From an uncultured Alistipes sp. (lineage in GTDB: Bacteria; Bacteroidota; Bacteroidia; Bacteroidales; Rikenellaceae): a stretch of DNA of 64,000 bases. Both the position numbers and the translations under genes were made by a program. Positions 43,303 to 64,000 of this stretch are shown here, in pieces. The DNA is taken from the NCBI GenBank assembly GCA_944326035.1, contig CALVCS010000010.1:124001-188000 (forward strand). Direction: 5' to 3'. Each line of letters starts with the position of its first letter. Position 1 is the stretch's first letter. The notes under the pieces are model-generated. The model ran no database searches, was not told the DNA's origin, and saw only the letters and a program-made list of their open reading frames with translations.

Positions 43303-43791
43303 TCAGGATTTGGAAACGGCTTTTAACACGAGGCCGCCCTGCATACGGATTTTGTGTCGGATATTCCGATGGGGGTCGTATTCCGGGAACAGAGTTGGGT
43401 TTGCTTCGATATATTCGATGGACTGTTCCAGCAGCAGGTCGGCTTGATGTCGAGCTTCTTTTCGCAGGAGGTGCAGTTGGCGGATAGAGATGGGTGCGGC
43501 ATAGTCGGTTTTTCCCTCCAGGATGCCCAGACTTCCGACCGATGCACTCATCAGGCTCAACGCCAGGCTTTTGACATAATAAGCCAAAGGCTTTTTGAGG
43601 AATTGGGTGACGAAACTTTCTTGACGGCTTTCCCCTAAGGTGTCGTACAGGGGGCCCAATACCGGTTTAAGATATCGAAGCTGGGCCGTTTCGATCAGGG
43701 TTTCATTGATCTGGTCATCGGGGCCGTTTGCGTTGGGCGGGAAGGCAATTTCCCAGACTTCTACAGGCGTAACGAGTAAAGGCGCACTCAT
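43303..43791 (-). CDS. Phage-derived protein of unknown function, last gene of operon
   Basis: 162 residues from the ATG at 43791, two bases after the portal stop. No motif that I recognise. Predicted largely alpha-helical, starting with PLLVTPVEVWEIAFPP and containing QLRYLKPVLGPLYDTLGE and LLRKEARHQADLLLEQSIEYI. Position directly after portal and its small size suggest a head-completion or head-tail connector protein, but this is inference from gene order. A frame with a longer N-terminus reading back through the portal gene is rejected. Confidence 0.6.
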   Translation of the reverse strand: MSAPLLVTPVEVWEIAFPPNANGPDDQINETLIETAQLRYLKPVLGPLYDTLGESRQESFVTQFLKKPLAYYVKSLALSLMSASVGSLGILEGKTDYAAPISIRQLHLLRKEARHQADLLLEQSIEYIEANPTLFPEYDPHRNIRHKIRMQGGLVLKAVSKS

Positions 43792-43793
43792 AA

Positions 43794-45035
43794 TCAGTCG
43801 ATATTTTTCAAAGCGTATTTTGTAATTTGAGCCAGGAAGAGGTTCTGTTGAGGATCGGTGGGGTCGTAGTCCAGACCGTCGTTTTTGCGCGCTTCCCACA
43901 CTTTCATATAGAGGGGCTTTGAGCGAGTGGGCGGTCGGTTGACGACCTGTAGGGAGGATGCATCGCAATTGAGGATCGTGGAGATGGCATTTCGGATCGG
44001 TTCCAACAGCTCCTGTTGTTCTCCCAGAATCAGGGTATTCAAGGCGATTTCATATTCATGCAGGATGCGTTCCGAGTTGAAACCGGTCGAATAATCCAGT
44101 CCGCTGAGCGATCGGAACCAGGAGTGAGCGACCACGATATCGGAGGTAGCCTGTTCATGGAGAAGTTTCCAATCTCCTTCATTGTCCGAAGCGATGGGGA
44201 CGAATTTCGAGTTATCGGCTTCTTCGGAGTTTTTGATCATGAACATCACTTGTCCGGGTTTTCCGGCGAAGCGTTTTTCGGCGGTTTGGATAATTTGGTG
44301 GGCATCGAGTTCGTTGTCCACTTCACCGTCCAGCACCATGATGCCGGAGAGTTGGAAGGAGTTGTCCAATCGGCTGATGTTCCATTTGTCAGTTTTATAC
44401 GCGATGGCCGACACGTTCATTCCGGCGATGTAGGCGGGTACGCCATAGTGTTCGAACATCGGTTCATAATCTTTGTAGTGGAAGATCGATCGGAGGGTTC
44501 CATCCGGAGCCGGTTCGAATCGAGGGTATAGGGGGAGCGATCGACATTGACTGAGTTTGAAATCGCTCCAGTTATGATGCAACAGGATGGCTTGATTGTC
44601 TTTGGCGACGCGGCATTTGGAGGCATCTTGATGGAATAGCGAGAGGAAGGAGTGTTCCGGGTCGGTCACGATCTCCAGGAAGGCATTTCCGAACAGTGAT
44701 TTATCGAAAGCCAGTTTATTGAGAACCTGTCGCAGGCTTTCGCCGGTTCCGTTAGCCCGTTGGGAGAAGGCTTCGAGTTGTCGGTTGTTGGGGTCGAACG
44801 AGAACCCTTTTCCAGAGATATAGTCGGCCTTGTCGTTGATAATTCGACGGTGGGTGGTAGAACGTCTGGACATCAGGGCCAAGGCGTAGGGGAAGAGGTT
44901 ATCGTTTCCCCAGCTCCAGAAAGGTCGTTTATGGTTGGCATAGGAGGGTGGCGTGAACATAAAGGGATCCACTCGGTTTTGCGGCAGGTATAGTTTTGGG
45001 GGCGCCGATTTAGGCGCAGACGGTTTCTGCATCAT
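43794..45035 (-). CDS. Phage portal protein
   Basis: 413 residues. DNLFPYALALMSRRSTTHRRIINDKADYISGKG is broken here by landmark segments: WGNDNLFPYALALM, HRRIINDKADYISGKGF and LAFDKSLFGNAFLEIV, which follow the pattern of PBSX/HK97-type portals. The C-terminal part holds SGLDYSTGFNSERILHEYE and the long helix typical of the family. A portal forms the dodecameric DNA gate of a capsid and binds the terminase; no terminase gene is visible in this window. Frame intact and well-coded, so it does not look like decay. Confidence 0.82.
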   Translation of the reverse strand: MMQKPSAPKSAPPKLYLPQNRVDPFMFTPPSYANHKRPFWSWGNDNLFPYALALMSRRSTTHRRIINDKADYISGKGFSFDPNNRQLEAFSQRANGTGESLRQVLNKLAFDKSLFGNAFLEIVTDPEHSFLSLFHQDASKCRVAKDNQAILLHHNWSDFKLSQCRSLPLYPRFEPAPDGTLRSIFHYKDYEPMFEHYGVPAYIAGMNVSAIAYKTDKWNISRLDNSFQLSGIMVLDGEVDNELDAHQIIQTAEKRFAGKPGQVMFMIKNSEEADNSKFVPIASDNEGDWKLLHEQATSDIVVAHSWFRSLSGLDYSTGFNSERILHEYEIALNTLILGEQQELLEPIRNAISTILNCDASSLQVVNRPPTRSKPLYMKVWEARKNDGLDYDPTDPQQNLFLAQITKYALKNID

Positions 45036-45044
45036 CTGGGGTGA

Positions 45045-45578
45045 TTAGTTATTCAATAGATCATCGATATTCATCATGAGGTTGTACGCTTTGGAGGTAT
45101 CCGTACTTTGCAGGACGACGATTTCCGAGCCAGGTTCCGTAAACCGTTTTCCGGTGGTGCTGCTGGTTTGCACGACGTGGAGGGGGCGTTGTTTTCCGAA
45201 TTCCGGAGAGTAACCGATCAGGTACGTTTCGTTGGCAAAGGTTTGGATGATGGCGATGAAGCCTCGGAACGAGCTGTCTATCAGTTCGGAGACGGCGATG
45301 GCCGTGGCGTTGCACATTCGATCGAGGAGGAAGGACAGTTCGTGGGTTACGACGGTGGTTCCTTGTGTGATTTCGGTTTTTTCTTGATATTCCGCTTCGT
45401 CTTCGCGGAATTCATACACGATGAAGTGTTGATTGAGTTGCAGCTCGAGGTTTGTATAGGCTCGTGCTTCGACATCGTATTCGGCATTGAGCACGTCGCT
45501 ACTCAGGATGAGGGCGAGTTTTTGGATGCCGCCATTACGTAGAGCTTTATAGGGTTTAGTGAATCCGGATAAGGCCAT
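45045..45578 (-). CDS. Phage-derived protein of unknown function between capsid and portal genes
   Basis: 177 residues. Begins MALSGFTKPYKALRNGGIQ and contains IVYEFREDEAEYQEKTEITQGTTVVTHELSFLLDRM, of which the EDEAEYQEKTEITQG block and LDRMCNATAIAVSELI look like a tail-tube or structural-protein fold, but I recognise no family. 9 bases separate it from the portal gene, 81 from the capsid gene. No membrane segment or signal peptide. Virion structural role is inferred from position only. Confidence 0.6.
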   Translation of the reverse strand: MALSGFTKPYKALRNGGIQKLALILSSDVLNAEYDVEARAYTNLELQLNQHFIVYEFREDEAEYQEKTEITQGTTVVTHELSFLLDRMCNATAIAVSELIDSSFRGFIAIIQTFANETYLIGYSPEFGKQRPLHVVQTSSTTGKRFTEPGSEIVVLQSTDTSKAYNLMMNIDDLLNN

Positions 45579-45659
45579 AAGGATGAGGGTTTAAAGGTTA
45601 AAAGGCGAGTTGGAAGAAATTCGGGCCCTACGAGGAGGGCCCGAAAGAGGGGATCTCCG

Positions 45660-46667
45660 TTAGGGTTCCGTTTGGACAGCGGAAGCGGCAAAGGAGATGA
45701 GTTCCGGAAGCAGGTAATCGCAACCGGCCATAAAGACTGCGCGTTGACGATTTTCCATCAGATCGGGGTTATACCACATCCGGATTTCGGCGCCGGGAAA
45801 ATCAGCCGTATTGACGGCCAGAGCCAGGTTTCGCCGGTCTGTCAGGATGGCGAAAGATTTCGGCATATCGGTCAGGGCCTCCAGGTAGGAGGAGAGTTCC
45901 ACGTCGATCACCGGGATTCCGCGGTAAGAGAGTCTTTCGCGACCATTTTGTTTGGCGAGGTAAGCGGCTTCCAGGCTGGCGCTATCGAGTTCTTCTTCAT
46001 ATTTGGTATAGATGTCGGAGGTGACCAGATAGACCAGATTCCCTTGCGATTTGCAAGCTTTCAGGGTATCCGAGGCGGAGTCCCACAGGCTTTTCAGCAG
46101 GTTTTCCCCTGCGTTGGGATCGCTGCCATCGGAGAAGCTGGCGGGGATATCGATTTTGTGGATATTGTTGGTGCCGCTACCGGCGTCTTCGGTCAGTCGT
46201 TTGATAAAGCCGTCGAACGTATTGTGACTTCCGGAGCGATTGGTATCTCCCAGCCACATGGTGGTTCGAATACTTTCTGCGATTGCTTCACGGAACAGTG
46301 CGGTTTCGGCCTCTTCGAGTTCGGTTCCGGAGAGGTCTTCCATGTTGACATCCGGGCGGTTTGTAATCAGTTCGAAGACGGTGCTGAAGTAGTCGGCGGC
46401 GCTGTATCCGATTTCGGCTTTCACTTTGAAGAGGGCGATGCTTTTTTGGAACTTACTGGAGCTGGTGGTTCCGCTCCAACCGCCGGCCGTAAATTTTTGT
46501 AAGATGTCGCCGGACCGTTTCCAGAATTGCAAGGTTGTGGGGACGGGCATGTTATACATAACTTTGATTCCCAGGTCGATGGCATTGGGGCCACTAAGCA
46601 TCGGGCGGAAGAAGATTTTTTCCAGCATTTGGCCGGAATAGGTTTTGGTACTTTCGATTTTTGCCAT
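45660..46667 (-). CDS. Phage major capsid protein (HK97-fold candidate)
   Basis: 335 residues. N-terminal arm with KTYSGQMLEKIFFRPML, then a core with VYLVTSDIYTKYEEELDS and, diagnostic of HK97-type capsid proteins, RERLSYRGIPVIDVELSSYL followed by DMPKSFAILTDRRNLALAV. It directly follows the ClpP-type protease gene, the usual order of prohead protease then capsid protein. The delta (scaffold) domain is not at its own N-terminus, so the protease's long C-terminal tail may serve as scaffold. Composition is like neighbouring host genes. Confidence 0.78.
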   Translation of the reverse strand: MAKIESTKTYSGQMLEKIFFRPMLSGPNAIDLGIKVMYNMPVPTTLQFWKRSGDILQKFTAGGWSGTTSSSKFQKSIALFKVKAEIGYSAADYFSTVFELITNRPDVNMEDLSGTELEEAETALFREAIAESIRTTMWLGDTNRSGSHNTFDGFIKRLTEDAGSGTNNIHKIDIPASFSDGSDPNAGENLLKSLWDSASDTLKACKSQGNLVYLVTSDIYTKYEEELDSASLEAAYLAKQNGRERLSYRGIPVIDVELSSYLEALTDMPKSFAILTDRRNLALAVNTADFPGAEIRMWYNPDLMENRQRAVFMAGCDYLLPELISFAASAVQTEP

Positions 46668-46696
46668 AGCGATAAATTTGAAAAAGGGTTAAGGGG

Positions 46697-47680
46697 TTAT
46701 AGCGAGAATTGTGCAGCATCTTGTTGATAGGATCGAGCATTGGAAGAGGCCGGGAAGTCATCTTGTCCGGGGTCTTCTTTGCTTTCGGTGGAGGTTGCCA
46801 GCGCCAGGGCACGGAGGGGAGGATCTTGGATTTTTTGGGGGGGTGTTTGGTTGAGGAGTGCAGATGGAGAGGCGTTCGGAGGGTCGAGGGGAAGTTCCTG
46901 TTGGGGGACGACAGCCGGCGATGGGGGCGTATTTGTAGAGGGTGTCGGATCGGTTTGTTTTTCAGATAACCGGGTCATGGTATCTTGCAGGAGGGAGAAG
47001 GCTGCTTTTAACAGGGTTTTCGAAGTTTCACAGGAGTCTTCGGGGGGAGCCGGCAGGTTGAGTTGTTGAACGAGTTGTCGGGTTTGGTTATCCATGTTGT
47101 GCGCGGGGATGATTCGGTCGATCAATCCGGCCGTTTTAGCCTCTCGGGCCGACAACCACTTGCCATTACCGTGATTAAGGGCCATCAGTTGGATAAAATG
47201 GTCGATGGATTTTCCAGAACGGGCGGCGTATAGTTCGGCAATTCGTCGATCGGTCTGGTTGAGCAGGTCGACGGTTTGTTCCAGGGCTCCGGCATTTCCG
47301 GCGCTGCTACTGATGGACTGATGGATGAGGTAGAGGCTGTTAGCCGACATTTCACGTCGTCCTTTCGAGGCGGCTTGGGCGATGAGGGTTGCGGCGGAGG
47401 CGACGTATCCATAGCAACGGGTTGTGATCTGTTTTTTGGATTCGCACAAGAGGTCGTGGATCAGGAGGGCGTCATTGACATTTCCGCCGGCCGATCGGAT
47501 ATTGACAATGATTTCAGGGGTTGAGATTTGTCGGATGGCTTCGATTTGTTTTTGGAACATATCCATACTTTCCGTACGGTTTTCACCGGGGCTTTCTTCG
47601 GAAAGACCGATGATACCGTCGATATTGAGTTCGGTGATTTGTTCCGAGCGTTTTACGACAACGATGGTTCCGGTTAACAT
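46697..47680 (-). CDS. ClpP-type prohead protease with scaffold-like tail
   Basis: 327 residues. Residues 1-195 are a ClpP/S14 fold with the nucleophile S95 (GYVASAAT) and H120 (LYLIHQS). The aspartate usually found just before the WLSA-type motif is missing; the sequence there reads HGNGKWLSA (residues 170-178), so the triad may be incomplete or use another residue. Residues about 225-327 are Pro/Ser/Gln-rich and disordered (PSTNTPPSPAV), fitting a scaffold or assembly tail removed during maturation. Located just before the capsid gene. Confidence 0.78.
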   Translation of the reverse strand: MLTGTIVVVKRSEQITELNIDGIIGLSEESPGENRTESMDMFQKQIEAIRQISTPEIIVNIRSAGGNVNDALLIHDLLCESKKQITTRCYGYVASAATLIAQAASKGRREMSANSLYLIHQSISSSAGNAGALEQTVDLLNQTDRRIAELYAARSGKSIDHFIQLMALNHGNGKWLSAREAKTAGLIDRIIPAHNMDNQTRQLVQQLNLPAPPEDSCETSKTLLKAAFSLLQDTMTRLSEKQTDPTPSTNTPPSPAVVPQQELPLDPPNASPSALLNQTPPQKIQDPPLRALALATSTESKEDPGQDDFPASSNARSYQQDAAQFSL

Positions 47681-47701
47681 AGGGGCAGGGTAGATTTTGG
47701 G

Positions 47702-47974
47702 TTAATGAGAGAAATGGACATCTTGATAGTAGTACATACATTTTCGGACGTATTCGTACGAGCAGGCGAAATATTCTGCGGCTTTCCACATGGCGTCGAT
47801 TTTTTTCTCACCGTGTTTGACGAGTTGTTCCACCCAGTTTTTTACGGCGAGGATTTTGCAACGCGAGAAATCGATCACGCCCATATCCATTAATTTTTGC
47901 ATCAGTCGGGCGGTTGACAGATGGGGGTATCGTTGTTCTACCTGCCAGATGAGTTCTTTTTCGTAAGTGGTCAT
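47702..47974 (-). CDS. Small helical protein, possible DNA-binding, phage-derived operon
   Basis: 90 residues, not recognised. All-helical in appearance, with aromatic residues concentrated at the C-terminus (CSYEYVRKCMYYYQDVHF). The segment AAEYFACSYEYVRKCMYY resembles the second half of a helix-turn-helix as in some small terminase or transposase-like proteins. Its position between virion genes, before the protease, would suit a small packaging protein. This is a guess from shape only. Confidence 0.5.
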   Translation of the reverse strand: MTTYEKELIWQVEQRYPHLSTARLMQKLMDMGVIDFSRCKILAVKNWVEQLVKHGEKKIDAMWKAAEYFACSYEYVRKCMYYYQDVHFSH

Positions 47975-47992
47975 ATGCTAATGGGTTAAGAG

Positions 47993-48436
47993 TTAGAAGG
48001 AGGCCAATTCCACGATGCTTTTAACGGCTTGCTGCGCTTGCGTGATGTCTGATTCCAGGACGTAGATTTTCAGGCCTTGGATGGTTTCATCGATCATTTG
48101 TCGGACTTCGGCGCGAGTCAGGGTTACGGGATTGGTTTCTGCTTGGGCGAAGGAGGGGATGAAGGGGTTGTTTGCTGGAGAGGGTGAGAAGGTCTCGGTG
48201 GTGCTGACGCGAGAGGTTGAGGCGGGGAGGTCGAGGGCTGTAGGATAAAGCGTTGTGAGTAGCGGGGTAGGTTCAGAGCCTTCGGGGGTCAGTCGGGAGA
48301 AATGGTTCGGGACGGTGGTCATGGTAGCGTTCGGAAGACCGGTGGTTGAGGAGGGGGGTGTGGAAGGACGCAGATTTTCGGGTTGTTCTGGCGTTGGATC
48401 GAGGGTTTCAAGGAGAATTCGGTATCGGATAGACAT
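47993..48436 (-). CDS. Pro/Ser/Thr-rich virion-like protein with conserved C-terminal motif
   Basis: 147 residues. Residues 12-105 are low-complexity and rich in Pro, Ser and Thr. The C-terminal 40 residues (LTRAEVRQMIDETIQGLK then IYVLESDITQAQQAV) are ordered. A closing VLES-DIT-xxQ-type motif is, to my recollection, common at the ends of Bacteroidota phage virion proteins, but I could not check this. It is probably a tail or head accessory protein with a flexible linker. Confidence 0.5.
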   Translation of the reverse strand: MSIRYRILLETLDPTPEQPENLRPSTPPSSTTGLPNATMTTVPNHFSRLTPEGSEPTPLLTTLYPTALDLPASTSRVSTTETFSPSPANNPFIPSFAQAETNPVTLTRAEVRQMIDETIQGLKIYVLESDITQAQQAVKSIVELASF

Positions 48437-48448
48437 AGGCGTAGGAGA

Positions 48449-50854
48449 TCAAGCGGTTTTCAGGAAAGTACATCGGGTGGATTGATTGAGATCGGGGTTA
48501 TAGTCGGTGATTTCTTCCAGCCGGCAGATAATCTCTTCTCCATGAATCCGGAGTTTGAATCGGGCCCGGAAGTCGTGTTGCAAATCATTGGGGATGATAA
48601 ACGGTTCGATTTCATGGGGTTTCAGATGGAGGTAGAGGGTAATTTTCAGGCCCTGATTATAGGTTTGGATGGTTTGGTCATAGTATTGATGTAATCCGGG
48701 CTGTTCGTTCCGATCTTCGAAGCAGAGGGAGGGGGTACGACCTAAGTTGTCGTGAAAAGCGATCAGCGGGTATTGTTTTCCGTAGGCAGGCCAGCCCCAG
48801 TATTGTTCGTCAGGGAGGGTTTGCAGGCCGGCGTAACTCACGATTTTAGGGGGGAAGTTCAGATTTTCGATGCCTGGATTCTCTCCGTTGCTATCGCGGT
48901 CTCCGGCTTGGACGATGGAGGCATCGGGGGCATCGGGGTAGCTATCTTGTTGATTCAGCGAGGCGGTGAAGAGGGGATTTTCATACGATTTTTCCTGTTC
49001 TTGGGGGAATTGATTTTTGATTTCGGCACTCCAAGCGCCGAATACTTGACGGTTTGCCCGGTTCCATCGGGTCACGGCTCCATCTCCCGTTTGATATTTC
49101 AGGGTAAATCGGGCGCCCATATTTTCGCCTAATTCTTCGACATAGATGGGCTGATTCAGGTCGATTTTGTCGGACCAATCGATCAATGTGGATCCATAGA
49201 AGCTTTCTCGGGGTTCGATGTAGATGATTTTACTTCGGGTGTCGGTGTAGAAGAAGAGGTTGAACATCTGTTTGACCGCATTCACCAGATCGATCTGATG
49301 GATTTCGTGGGCGGCGATTTGCGCGAAGTCGATGGTATTTCCCTCGCCGGGGTGGGAGACGAAGATCGGTTTGAGGGTCACTTTGTCGGACAAGGTGAGG
49401 CTCATGTCGGGTTCAGCGCCTCCGAAATAGATTTGGTCGAAATACTGGGGTTTCGAGGGGGAGATTTCGCGGGCCGTACTACGGGCGGTAATTGCGATAT
49501 CGATCTGTCCGGTTTCCGTAACGTATCCGTCATAGAGGGCCCAGTCTTGGGTATAGGGTTGGTAGGTGCCATCGGCGTTTCGGATCCAGAGGCAAGGGTT
49601 GGTAAGGGTTCCTCCGGCGGGGACGGTAATATTGACGCACCGTTCGGTGAAGGTTTTCAGGGTGAGGGTGGTATAGTCCGAAGGTTGGAGGTTTTGGGGG
49701 TCGGCATTCGGATTGGTGATTTGGTCGTAGGTAAAGCGGTAGGCATCGCCATCGTAGTGGTTGAACACGATGAGGGTATAGCTCCAGTTGTCGTGGAATT
49801 CAGCTCTTCGGTCGATTTGACGATTGATGACTTTGTACTGTCGTTCATAACCGTCGTCCAGGCGCAGGGAGTTGAAGCAGCAGAGTTCGTCCCGGCTTTT
49901 GATACGGTAGTCGCTGCGGTATTGGAGGGCGTATTCGAATCCGACGACGACCGTTTCAACCGGGAAGAAACCGATTCGTTGTCCATCGATTCGGAACGCC
50001 TCATTGTGGTTATAGAGATCGGGGAGTGTTTTCCCATTTTGGGTTTCGTAGGGGTCTGCGGTTTCGACGAGGTTTCCCAGGGAGGAGAGGGTTGTCAAGG
50101 GGTCGGCATAGACTCTTCCCAGGTGGTCGGCGTTAGCGGAGACGTCGGTGAATCGTCCGGCGAGGAAACCCATTCGTTCTTTGAGCAGTTCGCTATCCCG
50201 TTCGGTATATTTTCCGCTGAGGTAGAGGGAGTCGAAGAAGGGGCTATTCAAGAAATTCGACTGGATGACATATCCGCTTTGGGCGGCGATTTGCGTCAGG
50301 AGGGAATGGACGTGCAGGAAGGGGTGATAATCCTCGAAGGTAAGGACCCTGACACCGGGTTGGAGGGTATTAGAGGGGAGGGTAAATCGGTCGCGTTGTA
50401 CGGGGAAGAATCGCAGGGGTTTATCCCAGTTCCAGCTTTGCAGGACATTACTGGCATTGAGGGTGGTTTCGCAGTTGATTTCGAGTTCATTGAACATGCG
50501 TTCGGAGGCGGCCTGCACCCAATTTTTGCCGGCTCCGATGATATTCAGGTGGTACCAACCCGAGCCGTCCGGATTTTCTTCCCGTTTGGTCAGCATGGGG
50601 GTTCCTTCCATAACGATACAACCCTCCTTTTCGATGCGAGCGGTATGTGGGGTTTGGTTGAATCGTTGCGGGGAGAGGATCTCTCCGGCATCGCCCATGA
50701 TGGCTCGATTTCGGGTGGTGATAGGCAGTTTCAGGGTTTTGCTGTAACCGGTTCGGCCGGTTTCGATTTGAGAGATCGAGGCGATGGAGAGGGTGATAGC
50801 GATGCTTTGAGAGGGATCGGTTTCGGTTTCTCGGTTATCGATGAAGCATTTCAT
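48449..50854 (-). CDS. Large phage baseplate/tail-tip-like protein
   Basis: 801 residues, largest product of the operon. The N-terminus SIASISQIETGRTGYSKTLK with LPITTRNRAIMG is a beta-domain opening that I associate with baseplate hub-like proteins of Bacteroidota phages. The middle is beta-rich (LWIRNADGTYQPYTQDWAL), and near residue 530 QIDLVNAVKQMFNLFFYTDT is a helical element. No coiled coil long enough to be a tape measure. It could be a gp27-like hub or a tail adhesin. Assignment is from general features, not a confirmed domain. Confidence 0.55.
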   Translation of the reverse strand: MKCFIDNRETETDPSQSIAITLSIASISQIETGRTGYSKTLKLPITTRNRAIMGDAGEILSPQRFNQTPHTARIEKEGCIVMEGTPMLTKREENPDGSGWYHLNIIGAGKNWVQAASERMFNELEINCETTLNASNVLQSWNWDKPLRFFPVQRDRFTLPSNTLQPGVRVLTFEDYHPFLHVHSLLTQIAAQSGYVIQSNFLNSPFFDSLYLSGKYTERDSELLKERMGFLAGRFTDVSANADHLGRVYADPLTTLSSLGNLVETADPYETQNGKTLPDLYNHNEAFRIDGQRIGFFPVETVVVGFEYALQYRSDYRIKSRDELCCFNSLRLDDGYERQYKVINRQIDRRAEFHDNWSYTLIVFNHYDGDAYRFTYDQITNPNADPQNLQPSDYTTLTLKTFTERCVNITVPAGGTLTNPCLWIRNADGTYQPYTQDWALYDGYVTETGQIDIAITARSTAREISPSKPQYFDQIYFGGAEPDMSLTLSDKVTLKPIFVSHPGEGNTIDFAQIAAHEIHQIDLVNAVKQMFNLFFYTDTRSKIIYIEPRESFYGSTLIDWSDKIDLNQPIYVEELGENMGARFTLKYQTGDGAVTRWNRANRQVFGAWSAEIKNQFPQEQEKSYENPLFTASLNQQDSYPDAPDASIVQAGDRDSNGENPGIENLNFPPKIVSYAGLQTLPDEQYWGWPAYGKQYPLIAFHDNLGRTPSLCFEDRNEQPGLHQYYDQTIQTYNQGLKITLYLHLKPHEIEPFIIPNDLQHDFRARFKLRIHGEEIICRLEEITDYNPDLNQSTRCTFLKTA

Positions 50855-50857
50855 GGC

Positions 50858-51862
50858 TTAGAGGTGCTGGTAAAAGGATTTCAGGCTGGGGGCGATACTG
50901 AGTTGGAGTCGGGCGAGCTGATTTCCGCCGGTCATGATTTGTTGGGTAAGGATTTCGATAGGGATGAATTCGGTTCCGTTATCGATCCATACTTTGGGTG
51001 AGGCGGCGATTTCCTGGATCCAGTTCATATTTTCCTGGTTCAGGTAGTCCGAGACCAGTTCATAGCGGGATTCGGTTTGGCATCCGGTTGTTTTGTATCC
51101 CTGATCGGTATAGATACGTTGTTTATCGATCAGGAGGGAGGTTTGGGCGATTTTGAAGGAGTAGTAGTCGATTTGTCCGAAGTAGTTCCACCAGCACAAT
51201 CGCAGTTTATTTTCCGTCAAGGGTTCGATACGGTATTTACGGCTGCATATCAGTTCGTCGTATTCTGTTGTAATTTGCAGTTCCAGGAGGTGATATTGAT
51301 CGATGGGTTCCCATTGGTTTTGGGTAATTTGTCGGACGACATGGGGCATGTGGAAGTAGAGGGCGCAGAGACCGGTTTGTTTATTTTTCTCGGCCAATCG
51401 GATTTTCCGGGTACTGGAGGAGGAGCTCAGGATGACGTCTGCATAGAGGGCGGAGTCGTCGGTATAGAGGGCGATTTCGTCGCTTTGATCCGGGGAGATG
51501 ACGAGGGAGTCGGGGGCTTTTGTCAGTTTTTCGAAAAACAAGATCTTTTGCAGGCCGCTGGTTAAGATCACGGAGCTTTTCACGTCACCGGCCTGGATTT
51601 GGATGGTAGTCATCCGTTTGGTGGGGTAATCGAAGACGGTTTCGTTGGCTCTGAGGGGGGTTACTTCGAGGAGTTGTTGGGCATAGTTACTGACATTGAT
51701 GGAGTAGGCGGTTTGTCCGGAGAGTTTTTTTTTGCCGAGTAGGAGGTTTTGTGTTTCCTCCCGGATATCCAGGTCGATTATTTCCGATTCAGCGGCCGAG
51801 AGGGTAAAGAGGGCCTCTTGGTAGGCGGACGATCGTTGAGCGGGGATTGCGGTGATTTCCAT
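50858..51862 (-). CDS. Phage-derived tail or baseplate protein of unknown function
   Basis: 334 residues. Mostly beta, with YSINVSNYAQQLLEVTPL early and YFGQIDYYSFKIAQTSLLID in the middle, and ending in a basic helix (LARLQLSIAPSLKSFYQHL). I recognise no family. It is coupled to the 801-residue gene (3-base gap), so both products probably belong to one sub-assembly. Confidence 0.55.
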   Translation of the reverse strand: MEITAIPAQRSSAYQEALFTLSAAESEIIDLDIREETQNLLLGKKKLSGQTAYSINVSNYAQQLLEVTPLRANETVFDYPTKRMTTIQIQAGDVKSSVILTSGLQKILFFEKLTKAPDSLVISPDQSDEIALYTDDSALYADVILSSSSSTRKIRLAEKNKQTGLCALYFHMPHVVRQITQNQWEPIDQYHLLELQITTEYDELICSRKYRIEPLTENKLRLCWWNYFGQIDYYSFKIAQTSLLIDKQRIYTDQGYKTTGCQTESRYELVSDYLNQENMNWIQEIAASPKVWIDNGTEFIPIEILTQQIMTGGNQLARLQLSIAPSLKSFYQHL

Positions 51863-51867
51863 GGTTT

Positions 51868-52317
51868 TTAGGGGTTAAGATCTTCGTCGGGAGGGTTTAG
51901 GCTATTTTCAAAGGGGAAGGCGCAGCAGATATCGAATTCGGTTTTCAGGGAGATTTCGCTGCGGTTTGTCAGGCTGAATTCGGCGGGGGCGCAAGCGAGG
52001 TGGTCGATGGAGAAGATTTCTGGTTGAGAGATCAGGTTATCGATCCACAGCAGGACTTGTTTCTCCAGTTTTTCCCATTGTTGTTCCTTTTCGGTTTCGG
52101 TTGATTTTTTCCCGGATGTCAGCAGGTGGAGGGTGATGTGGTAGGTGATCAATCCTTCTTTGCGTCCGTTCATCTGGGTGAGGACGGGGGGTTCCATCCA
52201 GAGGGCGGGGAAACGGAGGTCGGCACGGGAGATTCGGTAAACGAAACCGTTCTGGAAATCGTAACCGCTTTTGAGGGCTTCTTGATGGATTAATTGGAGG
52301 AGTCGGGTTCTATACAT
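51868..52317 (-). CDS. Phage-derived protein of unknown function (possible tail terminator)
   Basis: 149 residues, alpha/beta in appearance. Starts MYRTRLLQLIHQEALKSGYD and has LITYHITLHLLTSGKK in the core. Size and fold are compatible with a tail-completion or terminator protein, but I see no diagnostic motif. Its start overlaps the upstream 280-residue gene by 28 bases. Confidence 0.5.
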   Translation of the reverse strand: MYRTRLLQLIHQEALKSGYDFQNGFVYRISRADLRFPALWMEPPVLTQMNGRKEGLITYHITLHLLTSGKKSTETEKEQQWEKLEKQVLLWIDNLISQPEIFSIDHLACAPAEFSLTNRSEISLKTEFDICCAFPFENSLNPPDEDLNP

Positions 52318-53132
52318 GGGAGAGGATGGTTTGAGGGGGAGAGGGGATTGAGGCGTTTTCGGATTTTAGCGTCGACGATCCGCATGAATTCATAGCAGGG
52401 GAGATGTTCGGTTTGTTGGATAGCGGAGGGGAGATAATTTGCCAGCCAGAGGATGAGGTCGTTCCAGGTAGGGGGTGTTTGCGAAGATGAGGTGGATGTT
52501 TGGGCGGATAGAGGGCGATGATGATAGCAGGCCGGGAAGGCGTATTTCCACAGCTGGTGAGCTTGCAACAGTTCGTGAAAGAGTGGAATGAGCCGCCTCA
52601 TGGGTCGAGTTTTCATTTTTTCGGCCCGTTTGAGGATTTTGTCTTCGTCATAGCGCAGGGAGTGATGGGAGAGGATGGCGGCGATCAGCGGGGCATGTTC
52701 GACGAAGTTTTCGAGGTAGAGATCGGTGGCGTCACAGAGGGCTTGTGCGGAGAGTCGTTTTAATGGATATCGGGGCGAGGGTTGTTTTTTTCGAGGCCAT
52801 AAGCATCTCCACCTGGAGTGTTTGGCCGGTTCGGTTGCCGGGGGTTGTTTGGAGGAGGGGGGATATGTGAGTAACGTCGAACTTTGTTGGGCGATGTCGA
52901 GGCTCCAGTGGGACAGGAAAGCTTGCCGGTCAGGAGGGTCCATTTTTTGTAGAGGGGATGTTTTGCAGCCCAGTCTGTTTTTCAGCGGCAGCGAGCGTAG
53001 CAGGGCTGGTGGGATGTCGGGATTGGGCGGGTTTGAATGCAGCGAGAGTAAGGTTTGCCACGCTTGGAGGGAGAGTTCTTCCAGTTGATCGGGATAGCGA
53101 TAGGTTCTGTTGTTGATAACGACACGTTTCAT
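52290..53132 (-). CDS. Phage-derived helical protein of unknown function
   Basis: 280 residues. Begins VVINNRTYRYPDQLEELSLQ and ends with a helix (CYEFMRIVDAKIRKRL). The middle holds a basic and proline-rich stretch (RWRCLWPRKKQPSPRY) followed by a helical block. No membrane segment. One of the TTATCAACA nonamers lies inside its first codons (VVINN). It could be a tail-assembly chaperone given position ahead of the tail genes, but this is inference. Confidence 0.5.
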   Translation of the reverse strand: MKRVVINNRTYRYPDQLEELSLQAWQTLLSLHSNPPNPDIPPALLRSLPLKNRLGCKTSPLQKMDPPDRQAFLSHWSLDIAQQSSTLLTYPPSSKQPPATEPAKHSRWRCLWPRKKQPSPRYPLKRLSAQALCDATDLYLENFVEHAPLIAAILSHHSLRYDEDKILKRAEKMKTRPMRRLIPLFHELLQAHQLWKYAFPACYHHRPLSAQTSTSSSQTPPTWNDLILWLANYLPSAIQQTEHLPCYEFMRIVDAKIRKRLNPLSPSNHPLPCIEPDSSN

Positions 53133-53173
53133 ATGTTGATAAGGTCATTTAGACTGTTGATATATGTTGATAA
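53111..53173 (-). repeat. TTATCAACA nonamer cluster, proximal group
   Basis: On the minus strand TTATCAACA is exact at 53119-53111, 53142-53134 and 53173-53165; TATATCAACA overlaps at 53163-53155 as a one-base variant. All have the same orientation. The nonamer differs in one base from the DnaA box TTATCCACA. Confidence 0.85.
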
Positions 53174-53180
53174 CTTTCTT

Positions 53181-53471
53181 TTAACGATATCGGGTCATGA
53201 CCTTTAAAAGTTCTTTGAGTTCTCGGCCCACGTTTCGGATGGGTTGATCGGCGTATTTTTGTCGAAGACGTTCATGGGCCAGGGTTTCGATTTGTTGAAG
53301 GGCGAGGTGGAGGGTATCGAGGCAGGTTTGGGTGAGTTGTTCGATGGATTTCGCGGGGTTTTCTGCAGCTTCGAGGGTTTGGAGAGTTTGTTTCGGGGGT
53401 CTGCCCCGTTGTTTTTTAGGGGCGGGATTTTGGGATTCTGCCGTCATCATAAGGAAAAGATTTTGAAGCAT
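53181..53471 (-). CDS. Small AT-hook-type DNA-binding protein, first gene of the phage-derived operon
   Basis: 96 residues. A basic AT-hook-like motif (KKQRGRPPKQ) near residue 20 precedes a helical C-terminal half (LHLALQQIETLAHERLRQ). Start codon uncertain: MMTAES eight residues later is also plausible. As first gene of the operon it could be a regulator or the DNA-recognition half of a packaging machinery, since small terminase subunits are also short and basic; neither can be shown here. Confidence 0.5.
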   Translation of the reverse strand: MLQNLFLMMTAESQNPAPKKQRGRPPKQTLQTLEAAENPAKSIEQLTQTCLDTLHLALQQIETLAHERLRQKYADQPIRNVGRELKELLKVMTRYR

Positions 53472-53499
53472 TGAGAATGTTTGAGGGGAGAGCGGGGGC

Positions 53500-53543
53500 T
53501 GTTGATAACGAGATGTAATTGGCTGGTCTCGGAATGTTGATAA
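53500..53543 (-). repeat. TTATCAACA nonamer pair in the operon leader
   Basis: Exact copies at 53508-53500 and 53543-53535, same orientation as the proximal group, 35 bases apart, inside the leader before the first gene. Confidence 0.85.
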
Positions 53544-53638: not shown

Positions 53639-53645
53639 GCTGGGA

Positions 53646-53678
53646 CAAATATACGATATCGGCTACCCCTTTGTCAAG
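53646..53678 (-). promoter_or_regulatory. Promoter of the phage-derived operon
   Basis: On the minus strand CTTG (53678-53675, one base off TTTG), 21 bases, then TATATTTG (53653-53646). An inverted repeat CGGCTACC (53660-53667) / GGTAGCCG (53680-53687) overlaps the -33 part and may also act as the rnhB terminator. Confidence 0.65.
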
Positions 53679-53726
53679 AGGTAGCCGCAAAAAATCCGAA
53701 AAAAGAGAAAATAAAAAGGGCGTATT

Positions 53727-54332
53727 TTATTTCAAGTCAAAGAGAGACAGCTGTTTGTCATTTTGATGAAACGAGCGTCGATGATAGGGAGAGAGGCCAT
53801 ATTTAGCAATGGCTTGTCGATGTTCTCTCGTTGGGTATCCTTTATTTCGTTTCCATCCGTATTGTGGGTACTCCAGATCGAGGCGTGTCATATAGAGGTC
53901 GCGTTCGGTTTTAGCCAGGACCGAAGCGGCGGCGATATTGGCATAGATTCCGTCTCCTTTGACGACACATTGGTAGGGGATATTTCCTTGGGTTCGGAAT
54001 CGATTCCCATCGATCAGCAGGAGCTGGGGGGTAATTTTGAGTTGTGCGACGGCCCGATTCATGGCTTCGAACGAGGCGTTCAGGATATTGATTTGGTCGA
54101 TTTCCTGCGGGGAGACCATTTCGATTGCCCAGGCCAGGGCCTCCTGTTGAATGATTTCGCGTAACAGGAATCGATTTTTCTCGCTCATTTTTTTGGAGTC
54201 GTTCAGCAGGGGGTGTTCCCATCGAGGGGGGAGGATTACGGCTGCGGCGCAAACGGGGCCCGCTAAGGGGCCCCGTCCGGCTTCATCGCAACCTGCTTCG
54301 ATGAGTTCGTATTGCGAACAGGTTTTAAGCAT
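53727..54332 (-). CDS. rnhB: Ribonuclease HII
   Basis: 201 residues. Cleaves RNA in RNA-DNA hybrids. Active-site acids D16 and E17 ([13 protein letters not shown]), D108 (LLIDGNR) and D127 ([18 protein letters not shown]). Its start overlaps the end of the DUF2723 gene by eight bases, so both are in one minus-strand unit. The unit ends at the inverted repeat that also overlaps the phage-operon promoter. Confidence 0.95.
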
Positions 54333-63227: not shown

Positions 63228-64000
63228 ATGGTTCTTCAGATTCTTTTGATCATTTCGATTGTATTGCAGTTGAGTGCGGCTTCGGTAGCGATTGGACTGA
63301 CGCGTCAGACCAAGTATAATCTTTCCTGGATTCTATTCACGATAGCCCTGAGTTGCATGGCATTTATGCGTTTCGGGGAGTACATTCAGCAGACCTCGTG
63401 GTGGGAGTGGCGTTTACCGGCGGAGTTTTTCGTATGGATGGGTGTGGCCACCTCGCTCTGCTTTGCGGTCGGGATGTTGCTGGTCAAGCGGATTTTTAAA
63501 TATATTTACAGCGTGGAGCGTCAGCGTCGGATTTCGGAGCGTCGGATTCTCAATACGGTTTTACGGACGGAGGAGAAGGAGCGTCAACGTTTTTCGAAAG
63601 ATCTGCATGATGGCTTGGGTCCTTTGCTTTCGTCGGCGAAGATGTCGGTATCGGCCTTGTCGGAAGGGGAGTTGAGCGCGAAGAATCAGGAGATTATCCG
63701 TAATGCGCGTTATGTGATTGACGAAGCGATTCGGAGTTTGCGGGAGATTTCGGTCAATCTGAGTCCGCATGTTTTGAATGATTTTGGGTTGGCGCGTGCG
63801 GTTTCGAACTTTATCAATAAGCTGCCGCACAACGATATGCATATTATTTTTCGGACGAATCTCAAAAGCGAACGATTCGATACCGATGTAGAGGTTATTT
63901 TGTACCGGGTACTTTGTGAGTTTATCAACAATAGTCTCAAGCATTCGGGGGCATCCCTCATAGAGATCGAGTTGACCTATCAGGAAGGGGTTCTTCGGAT
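63228..64000 (+). CDS. Sensor histidine kinase, HisKA_3 type (partial)
   Basis: The first 257 residues are visible; the gene runs off the right edge. Two membrane segments (about 2-22, 65-85, with a possible middle one at 32-45) without a large sensor domain, then a short coiled coil and the dimerisation/phosphoacceptor helix with H127 in FSKDLHDGLGPLLSSAK. The start of the ATPase domain is visible (CEFINNSLKHSGA, N-box). This is the NarL/LuxR-partner type of kinase; a response regulator is expected just outside the window. Confidence 0.85.
   Translation, partial: MVLQILLIISIVLQLSAASVAIGLTRQTKYNLSWILFTIALSCMAFMRFGEYIQQTSWWEWRLPAEFFVWMGVATSLCFAVGMLLVKRIFKYIYSVERQRRISERRILNTVLRTEEKERQRFSKDLHDGLGPLLSSAKMSVSALSEGELSAKNQEIIRNARYVIDEAIRSLREISVNLSPHVLNDFGLARAVSNFINKLPHNDMHIIFRTNLKSERFDTDVEVILYRVLCEFINNSLKHSGASLIEIELTYQEGVLR

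Follow-up and report, generated by a model that had tools for sequence, protein, structure and literature searches.

The window, the whole 64,000-nucleotide stretch of DNA that was analysed, carries on its minus strand an operon of phage structural genes (43303-53471). The operon lies downstream of rnhB, is preceded by a promoter predicted from sequence, and contains repeats of the 9-mer TTATCAACA in its leader and around the junction of its first two genes. In the direction of transcription, the features are as follows:

53727-54332, minus strand: rnhB (RNase HII), the constant upstream neighbour of the operon in the window's genus
53660-53687, minus strand: hairpin CGGCTACCTC TTGACAAA GGGGTAGCCG, whose loop contains the -33 box and whose stem is kept by compensatory changes
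53646-53677, minus strand: predicted operon promoter of the Bacteroidota type, TTGACA (53677-53672), an 18-bp spacer and TATATTTG (53653-53646)
53535-53543, minus strand: DnaA-type box 1, TTATCAACA, in the leader
53500-53508, minus strand: DnaA-type box 2, TTATCAACA, in the leader
53181-53471, minus strand: gene 1, 96 aa (the start may be 53448), small, without a clear family
53165-53173, minus strand: DnaA-type box 3, TTATCAACA, at the gene 1-gene 2 junction
53155-53163, minus strand: weak box ATATCAACA, a one-base variant 10 bp from box 3
53134-53142, minus strand: DnaA-type box 4, TTATCAACA, directly 5' of the gene 2 start codon
52290-53132, minus strand: gene 2, 280 aa, fast evolving, without a clear family match
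53111-53119, minus strand: DnaA-type box 5, TTATCAACA, within gene 2 (codons 5-8, V-I-N-N)
51868-52317, minus strand: gene 3, 149 aa, without a clear family match
50858-51862, minus strand: gene 4, 334 aa, without a clear family match
48449-50854, minus strand: gene 5, 801 aa, predicted tail hub fold (Mu gp44/VgrG/PVC spike like) with a TNF/C1q-like insert
46697-47680, minus strand: head maturation protease, ClpP type
45660-46667, minus strand: major capsid protein
45045-45578, minus strand: 177-aa gene between capsid and portal, without a clear family match
43794-45035, minus strand: portal protein
43303-43968, minus strand: DUF6712 protein, the final operon gene

Beyond the protease, capsid, portal and DUF6712 proteins, no clear family matches were obtained for the remaining operon genes, and no replication protein or Rep gene was found among them. 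The predicted structure of gene 5 aligned with Mu gp44, the PVC spike and VgrG at VIA Z 11-13 over ~290 residues, with no Foldseek E-value <0.001; its inserted domain (model residues ~222-502) matched TNF/C1q-like folds at Z 8-9. A search of the window's genome with the large-terminase family phrog_2, which a diverged terminase could escape, gave nothing beyond a weak match to a 324-aa ATPase. When named genomes were scanned, 228 relatives were identified, and the 80 retained came from Alistipes, Tidjanibacter, Rikenella, Millionella and other Rikenellaceae, with one titled only Bacteroidales. Gene 2 was present in 8/8 same-genus genomes examined, and the operon follows rnhB wherever the contig extends far enough, as well as in several family relatives. 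Across the Rikenellaceae, the capsid is 52-89% and the portal 54-87% identical, a degree of conservation similar to that of rnhB. The free phage relatives found were limited to viral-collection contigs, all of them short, and to two scaffolds from human faeces, unannotated and titled 'Bacteriophage sp.'. The human faecal 'Bacteriophage sp.' record MT838736.1 contains relatives of both capsid and portal and is silent on a virus-like-particle source. Judged by its gene content, this is a domesticated phage operon (capsid, portal, protease and hub), and, judged by its distribution, it is old, vertically inherited and held at a fixed chromosomal place.

Transcription of the operon is predicted to start near 53640, and the same type of element, TTGACA-N16-20-TAnnTTTG, precedes the operon at 50 loci. 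The hairpin at 53660-53687, whose stem covaries in rnhB-adjacent relatives and which is missing from Alistipes-type loci, is probably the end-of-transcript terminator of rnhB, overlapping the operon promoter. In two genomes (G019 and G038), the hairpin is followed by TTTTT.

The first-pass annotation had listed five exact copies of TTATCAACA at 53111, 53134, 53165, 53500 and 53535, with a variant at 53155, and all of these coordinates are right. The five copies fall within 433 bases, the given strand reading TGTTGATAA; on the minus strand, where the operon is also encoded, they read TTATCAACA and thus run with transcription. The description of the repeats as standing at the head of the operon holds for the two sites upstream of the first gene, but the other three are at the gene 1/gene 2 junction, the one at 53111 being inside gene 2. 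Box spacings in the window are 35, 10, 21 and 23 bp. Such a cluster is indeed far from chance: dinucleotide shuffles gave an expectation of 0.30 copies in the window, 0/100 shuffles reached the six copies present (the sixth, at 63922 on the plus strand, is unrelated to the cluster), and, with the 15 other copies per 2.31 Mb taken as the genomic rate, the probability of five in 433 bp is ~1e-15. A high genome-wide density of TTATCAACA, which, according to the annotation, would remove the signal, was ruled out by pattern searches of the whole genome (2.31 Mb, 14 contigs), in which 20 copies were counted vs 18 for the reversed control; TTATCCACA occurs 14 times in the same genome, scattered. Coding constraint was also considered as the source of the repeats, and it fits only box 5, which is partly accounted for by the conserved I-N-N peptide of gene 2.

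The leader was also compared across relatives, as the earlier annotation had proposed. Between the window's genome and its nearest relative (G003), 45/45 box bases are identical, with ~66% identity elsewhere from the leader to gene 2; the box spacings of the two are nearly equal, and the weak sixth site (53155-53163) reads CTATCCACA in the relative. The boxes are likewise kept in many Alistipes. In distant genomes, in which gene 2 is only ~30% identical, the leader and junction contain TTATTAACA, TTATCGACA, TTATGAACA, TTATAAACA and TTATCCACA, and at equivalent leader positions different species have TTATCAACA, TTATCGACA or the classical DnaA box TTATCCACA. The invariant part of the box across relatives is TTAT..ACA, and inverted copies are present in several of them. 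On the other hand, in a clade that comprises most Tidjanibacter and some others the leaders lack the boxes, with the operon and a similar promoter kept; box-based control, as read from these leaders, is therefore not universal in the family.

DnaA initiates replication and is also known to regulate a limited number of host genes, and the box that it is expected to recognize in this lineage can be read from the chromosome origin. GC skew, a criterion separate from the boxes, placed the origin in the Mrp-nadA intergenic region. The cumulative skew of the window's genome reaches its minimum at C12:64,704, within a few hundred bases of the Mrp-nadA gap (~C12:63,794-64,442); in a second genome (G004), the skew flips between 1,835,000 and 1,837,500, with nadA at 1,835,925; and in two complete relatives (G006 and G008), the skew changes sign near Mrp-nadA, the placement being coarse in resolution outside the first two genomes. 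The gap is AT-rich, carries DnaA-type boxes and is probably the chromosome origin of the Rikenellaceae.

All gapped words of the form XXXXNNXXX, none of them preselected, were counted in the operon leaders (the first 180 nt after the promoter, 50 loci) and in the oriC regions of 15 family genomes. The same word, TTATNNACA, ranks first in both sets, with 54 observed vs 0.98 expected in the leaders (29/50 loci) and 46 observed vs 2.02 expected in the oriC regions (14/15 loci); the species compared are related, so these counts are non-independent and P values are indicative only. Among individual forms, the operon 9-mer TTATCAACA is the commonest oriC box in the family (9), followed by TTATTCACA (7) and TTATCCACA (6). 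The oriC of the window's genome has TTATTCACA, TTATAAACA and TTATCCACA and no TTATCAACA, and that of its nearest relative has TTATCAACA twice. Close same-strand pairs of TTATNNACA occur in the window's genome only at the operon (three) and at oriC (one). Since A, C, G and T all occur at position 6 of the family oriC boxes, the DnaA box of the Rikenellaceae lineage, as read from these regions, is TTATNNACA, with any base tolerated at that position. The five window boxes, all with A at position 6, do not match TTWTNCACA, but this is the consensus of E. coli, and the family oriC also has A, G and T there. The earlier remark that the repeat is one base from the DnaA box undersells the resemblance, and the DnaA reading that accompanied it gains support from the first rank of this motif at the oriC of the lineage.

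Among the proteins of the window's genome, the Bac_DnaA_C domain was found in DnaA alone. A TTAT[CT]TACA element, likely an autoregulatory box, is conserved 35-50 nt ahead of dnaA in most of the genomes inspected. In G006, two further DnaA DNA-binding domain matches were seen in short open frames (95 and 102 aa) at C1:167596-167778 and 1617578-1617775, the former ~1.7 kb from a large-terminase match. A third same-strand TTATNNACA cluster, without a promoter, occupies the convergent uvrA-SDR gap (17 boxes vs 0 in the control, 11 genomes), for example in G006 and at ~132.4 kb of C11 in the window's genome. By analogy, it may be a datA- or DARS-like site; as a candidate for the oriC of G006 it was ruled out, the skew flip being at Mrp-nadA.

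The arrangement of the boxes relative to the promoter is also regular. Twelve leaders, nearly all of them Alistipes-type, have a first box that begins 37-38 nt downstream of the -7 element, with a median flank identity of 35%. Later boxes, where present in Alistipes-type leaders, are often at 92-94 and 115-116. The window's genus has a looser first-box distance from the promoter (54-110 nt). Over the 50 leaders, 48 boxes are oriented with transcription and 6 against it, and the distances between boxes cluster at 10-11, 22-23, 31-33, 44-46 and 53-56, with a period of 11.1 bp. At Alistipes loci, the leader often lies directly before gene 4 or gene 3, and many Alistipes operons that retain the boxes are missing gene 1. 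Where the operon context changes, the boxes track the promoter, not the neighbouring genes. Because Alistipes leaders keep the boxes without gene 1, the boxes are best assigned to the promoter, to which, on this comparison, they belong rather than to gene 1 or gene 2. The motif, its identity with the oriC motif, its conservation, spacing and phase, and its position relative to the promoter-like element are all direct observations. Given that the same top motif is found at oriC, that it alternates with TTATCCACA, and that orientation, phase and promoter distance are shared, the repeats are very probably host DnaA boxes.

Two readings in which the repeats would not be DnaA sites can be weighed against these data: (i) The repeats may serve a protein encoded by the element, either the gene 1 product or a Rep, as its operator or iterons, with a fortuitous resemblance to the DnaA box. 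Direct repeats do head the operon, and the window's gene 1 includes an RGRPPK stretch. However, the boxes persist in Alistipes leaders that lack the first gene (no ORF of at least 70 aa before gene 4), there is no Rep gene among the operon genes, 9-bp units at mixed distances are atypical for iterons, and the same word tops oriC; this explanation appears very unlikely. (ii) The repeats may act at the RNA level as UUAUCAACA in the leader, for example as a site for an RNA-binding repressor or in translation start, in keeping with their location in the transcribed leader and with the one site directly 5' of the gene 2 start codon. Against such a signal stand the inverted copies in several relatives, the 11-bp phase, which is that of DNA, the occurrence of the motif at oriC and the lack of any Rfam family at threshold, and we regard it as the least probable of the explanations considered.

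If the repeats are DnaA sites, they could still serve replication rather than the operon. A titration or DnaA-conversion site (datA/DARS like) might lie in the leader by chance and contribute to replication control; the number of boxes rivals that at oriC, and the promoterless uvrA-SDR cluster indicates that such sites exist in the family. Nevertheless, the distance to the operon promoter is fixed in 12 leaders with unrelated flanks, and the boxes go with the promoter, not with the neighbours, when the operon context changes; we consider this reading unlikely. A replication origin of the element, whether a phage remnant or one still firing locally to amplify the region, would explain an oriC-like box array inside a phage-derived locus; run-off replication has reportedly been described for the Bartonella GTA, which offers a comparison for local amplification. 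The composition of the leaders speaks against it, with an AT content of 0.47-0.55 (window 0.49), no AT-rich unwinding element and a maximum 30-nt AT of 0.63-0.83 vs 0.83-0.93 at oriC (0.70 in the window vs 0.93). The operon is also without a replication gene, and in G006, at 140-kb sampling, the GC skew does not change sign near the operon but is negative on both sides (1.26-1.54 Mb). An origin at this place is very unlikely. Among the meanings offered in the first-pass annotation, then, regulation through DnaA fits best because of the fixed promoter distance, the strand shared with transcription and the 11-bp phase; titration is possible, an origin is poorly matched by the data, and iterons or an operator for the first gene product lack support as a general explanation.

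We consider it likely that the repeats are DnaA sites, forming same-strand, phased arrays downstream of the promoter, and that DnaA controls transcription of the domesticated phage operon. From these arrangements, we infer DnaA binding, an effect on transcription and its sign, and a physiological signal. DnaA would assemble on the leader, probably cooperatively, so that control of the operon would depend on the DnaA level or its ATP state. Repression is the preferred sign because transcription runs through the boxes, which in the window's genus appear a second time where gene 1 meets gene 2. A DnaA filament on the leader would block RNA polymerase, in the window's genus a second filament at the junction would do the same, and expression of the operon would require free DnaA to be scarce or titrated away. 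It is also possible, if more doubtful, that DnaA activates the operon from its downstream sites, so that the particle genes would be on when DnaA is abundant or ATP-bound. The positional evidence is compatible with either sign, activation is as well documented as repression for DnaA in leaders elsewhere, DnaA bound in the 5' UTR of Borrelia dnaX-ebfC regulates these genes with activation reported (PMC9879097), and DnaA boxes occur downstream of lambda pO (PMC3985674). However, repeated same-strand boxes in a transcribed leader, and again 330 bp on in the window's genus, resemble blocks more than polymerase contacts. For the more specific proposal that DnaA itself, through an oriC-like array, directly regulates the phage-particle operon and thereby ties the making of a virus-like particle to replication status, we see the balance as even.

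DnaA boxes and DnaA-regulated genes are already known kinds, and the window cluster can be compared with several of them. As in bacterial oriC and low-affinity arrays, it consists of a TTAT..ACA 9-mer in one orientation and with an 11-bp phase, and TTATCCACA is found at the same places in relatives; unlike those arrays, it sits in a phage-derived leader away from oriC. E. coli DnaA favours box pairs 2-3 bp apart, which equal 11-12-bp units (PMC11317965), and low-affinity oriC arrays have 2-bp gaps (PMC6727663), whereas the window array is looser. The free position 6 of the Rikenellaceae box (A, C, G or T) also differs from E. coli and resembles TT(T/A)TCAACA, the proposed DnaA box of mollicutes (PMC3322544). 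On the linear chromosome of Cyanothece, DnaA domain IV binds an oriC in which the 9-mer TTATCAACA itself has been predicted as a box (PMC4674748). With DnaA-regulated leaders and promoters (E. coli dnaA and mioC; Borrelia dnaX-ebfC), the locus shares boxes near or downstream of a chromosomal promoter, but here the apparent target is a domesticated capsid, portal and hub operon, and in many species the boxes keep their positions, at a fixed distance from the promoter. With datA and DARS it shares a DnaA-box cluster outside oriC, and it differs from them in being tied to a promoter at a fixed distance.

The nearest parallel is GafA, the activator of alphaproteobacterial GTAs, which has a DnaA-like DNA-binding domain (PMC6363796). 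Control of GTAs by GafA or GafYZ (Rhodobacter, Caulobacter) similarly places a chromosomal phage-derived structural operon under host control. In contrast, the sites described here fit DnaA itself, no second Bac_DnaA_C protein having been found in the genome, and the phrog_2 search recognised no terminase for the window operon, so that a GTA that packages DNA would be at most a possibility here. In the literature searched, there was no paper on DnaA control of an Alistipes phage operon or on this operon, nor did that literature contain a case of a DnaA array that precedes a domesticated phage-particle operon and is retained in much of a family.

As a by-product, the analysis provides a probable location for oriC and a form of the DnaA box in the Rikenellaceae. 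If the proposed control is correct, Alistipes and its relatives, which are common in the gut, would have a virus-like particle linked to their replication cycle, and this link would provide a handle for switching the particle on.
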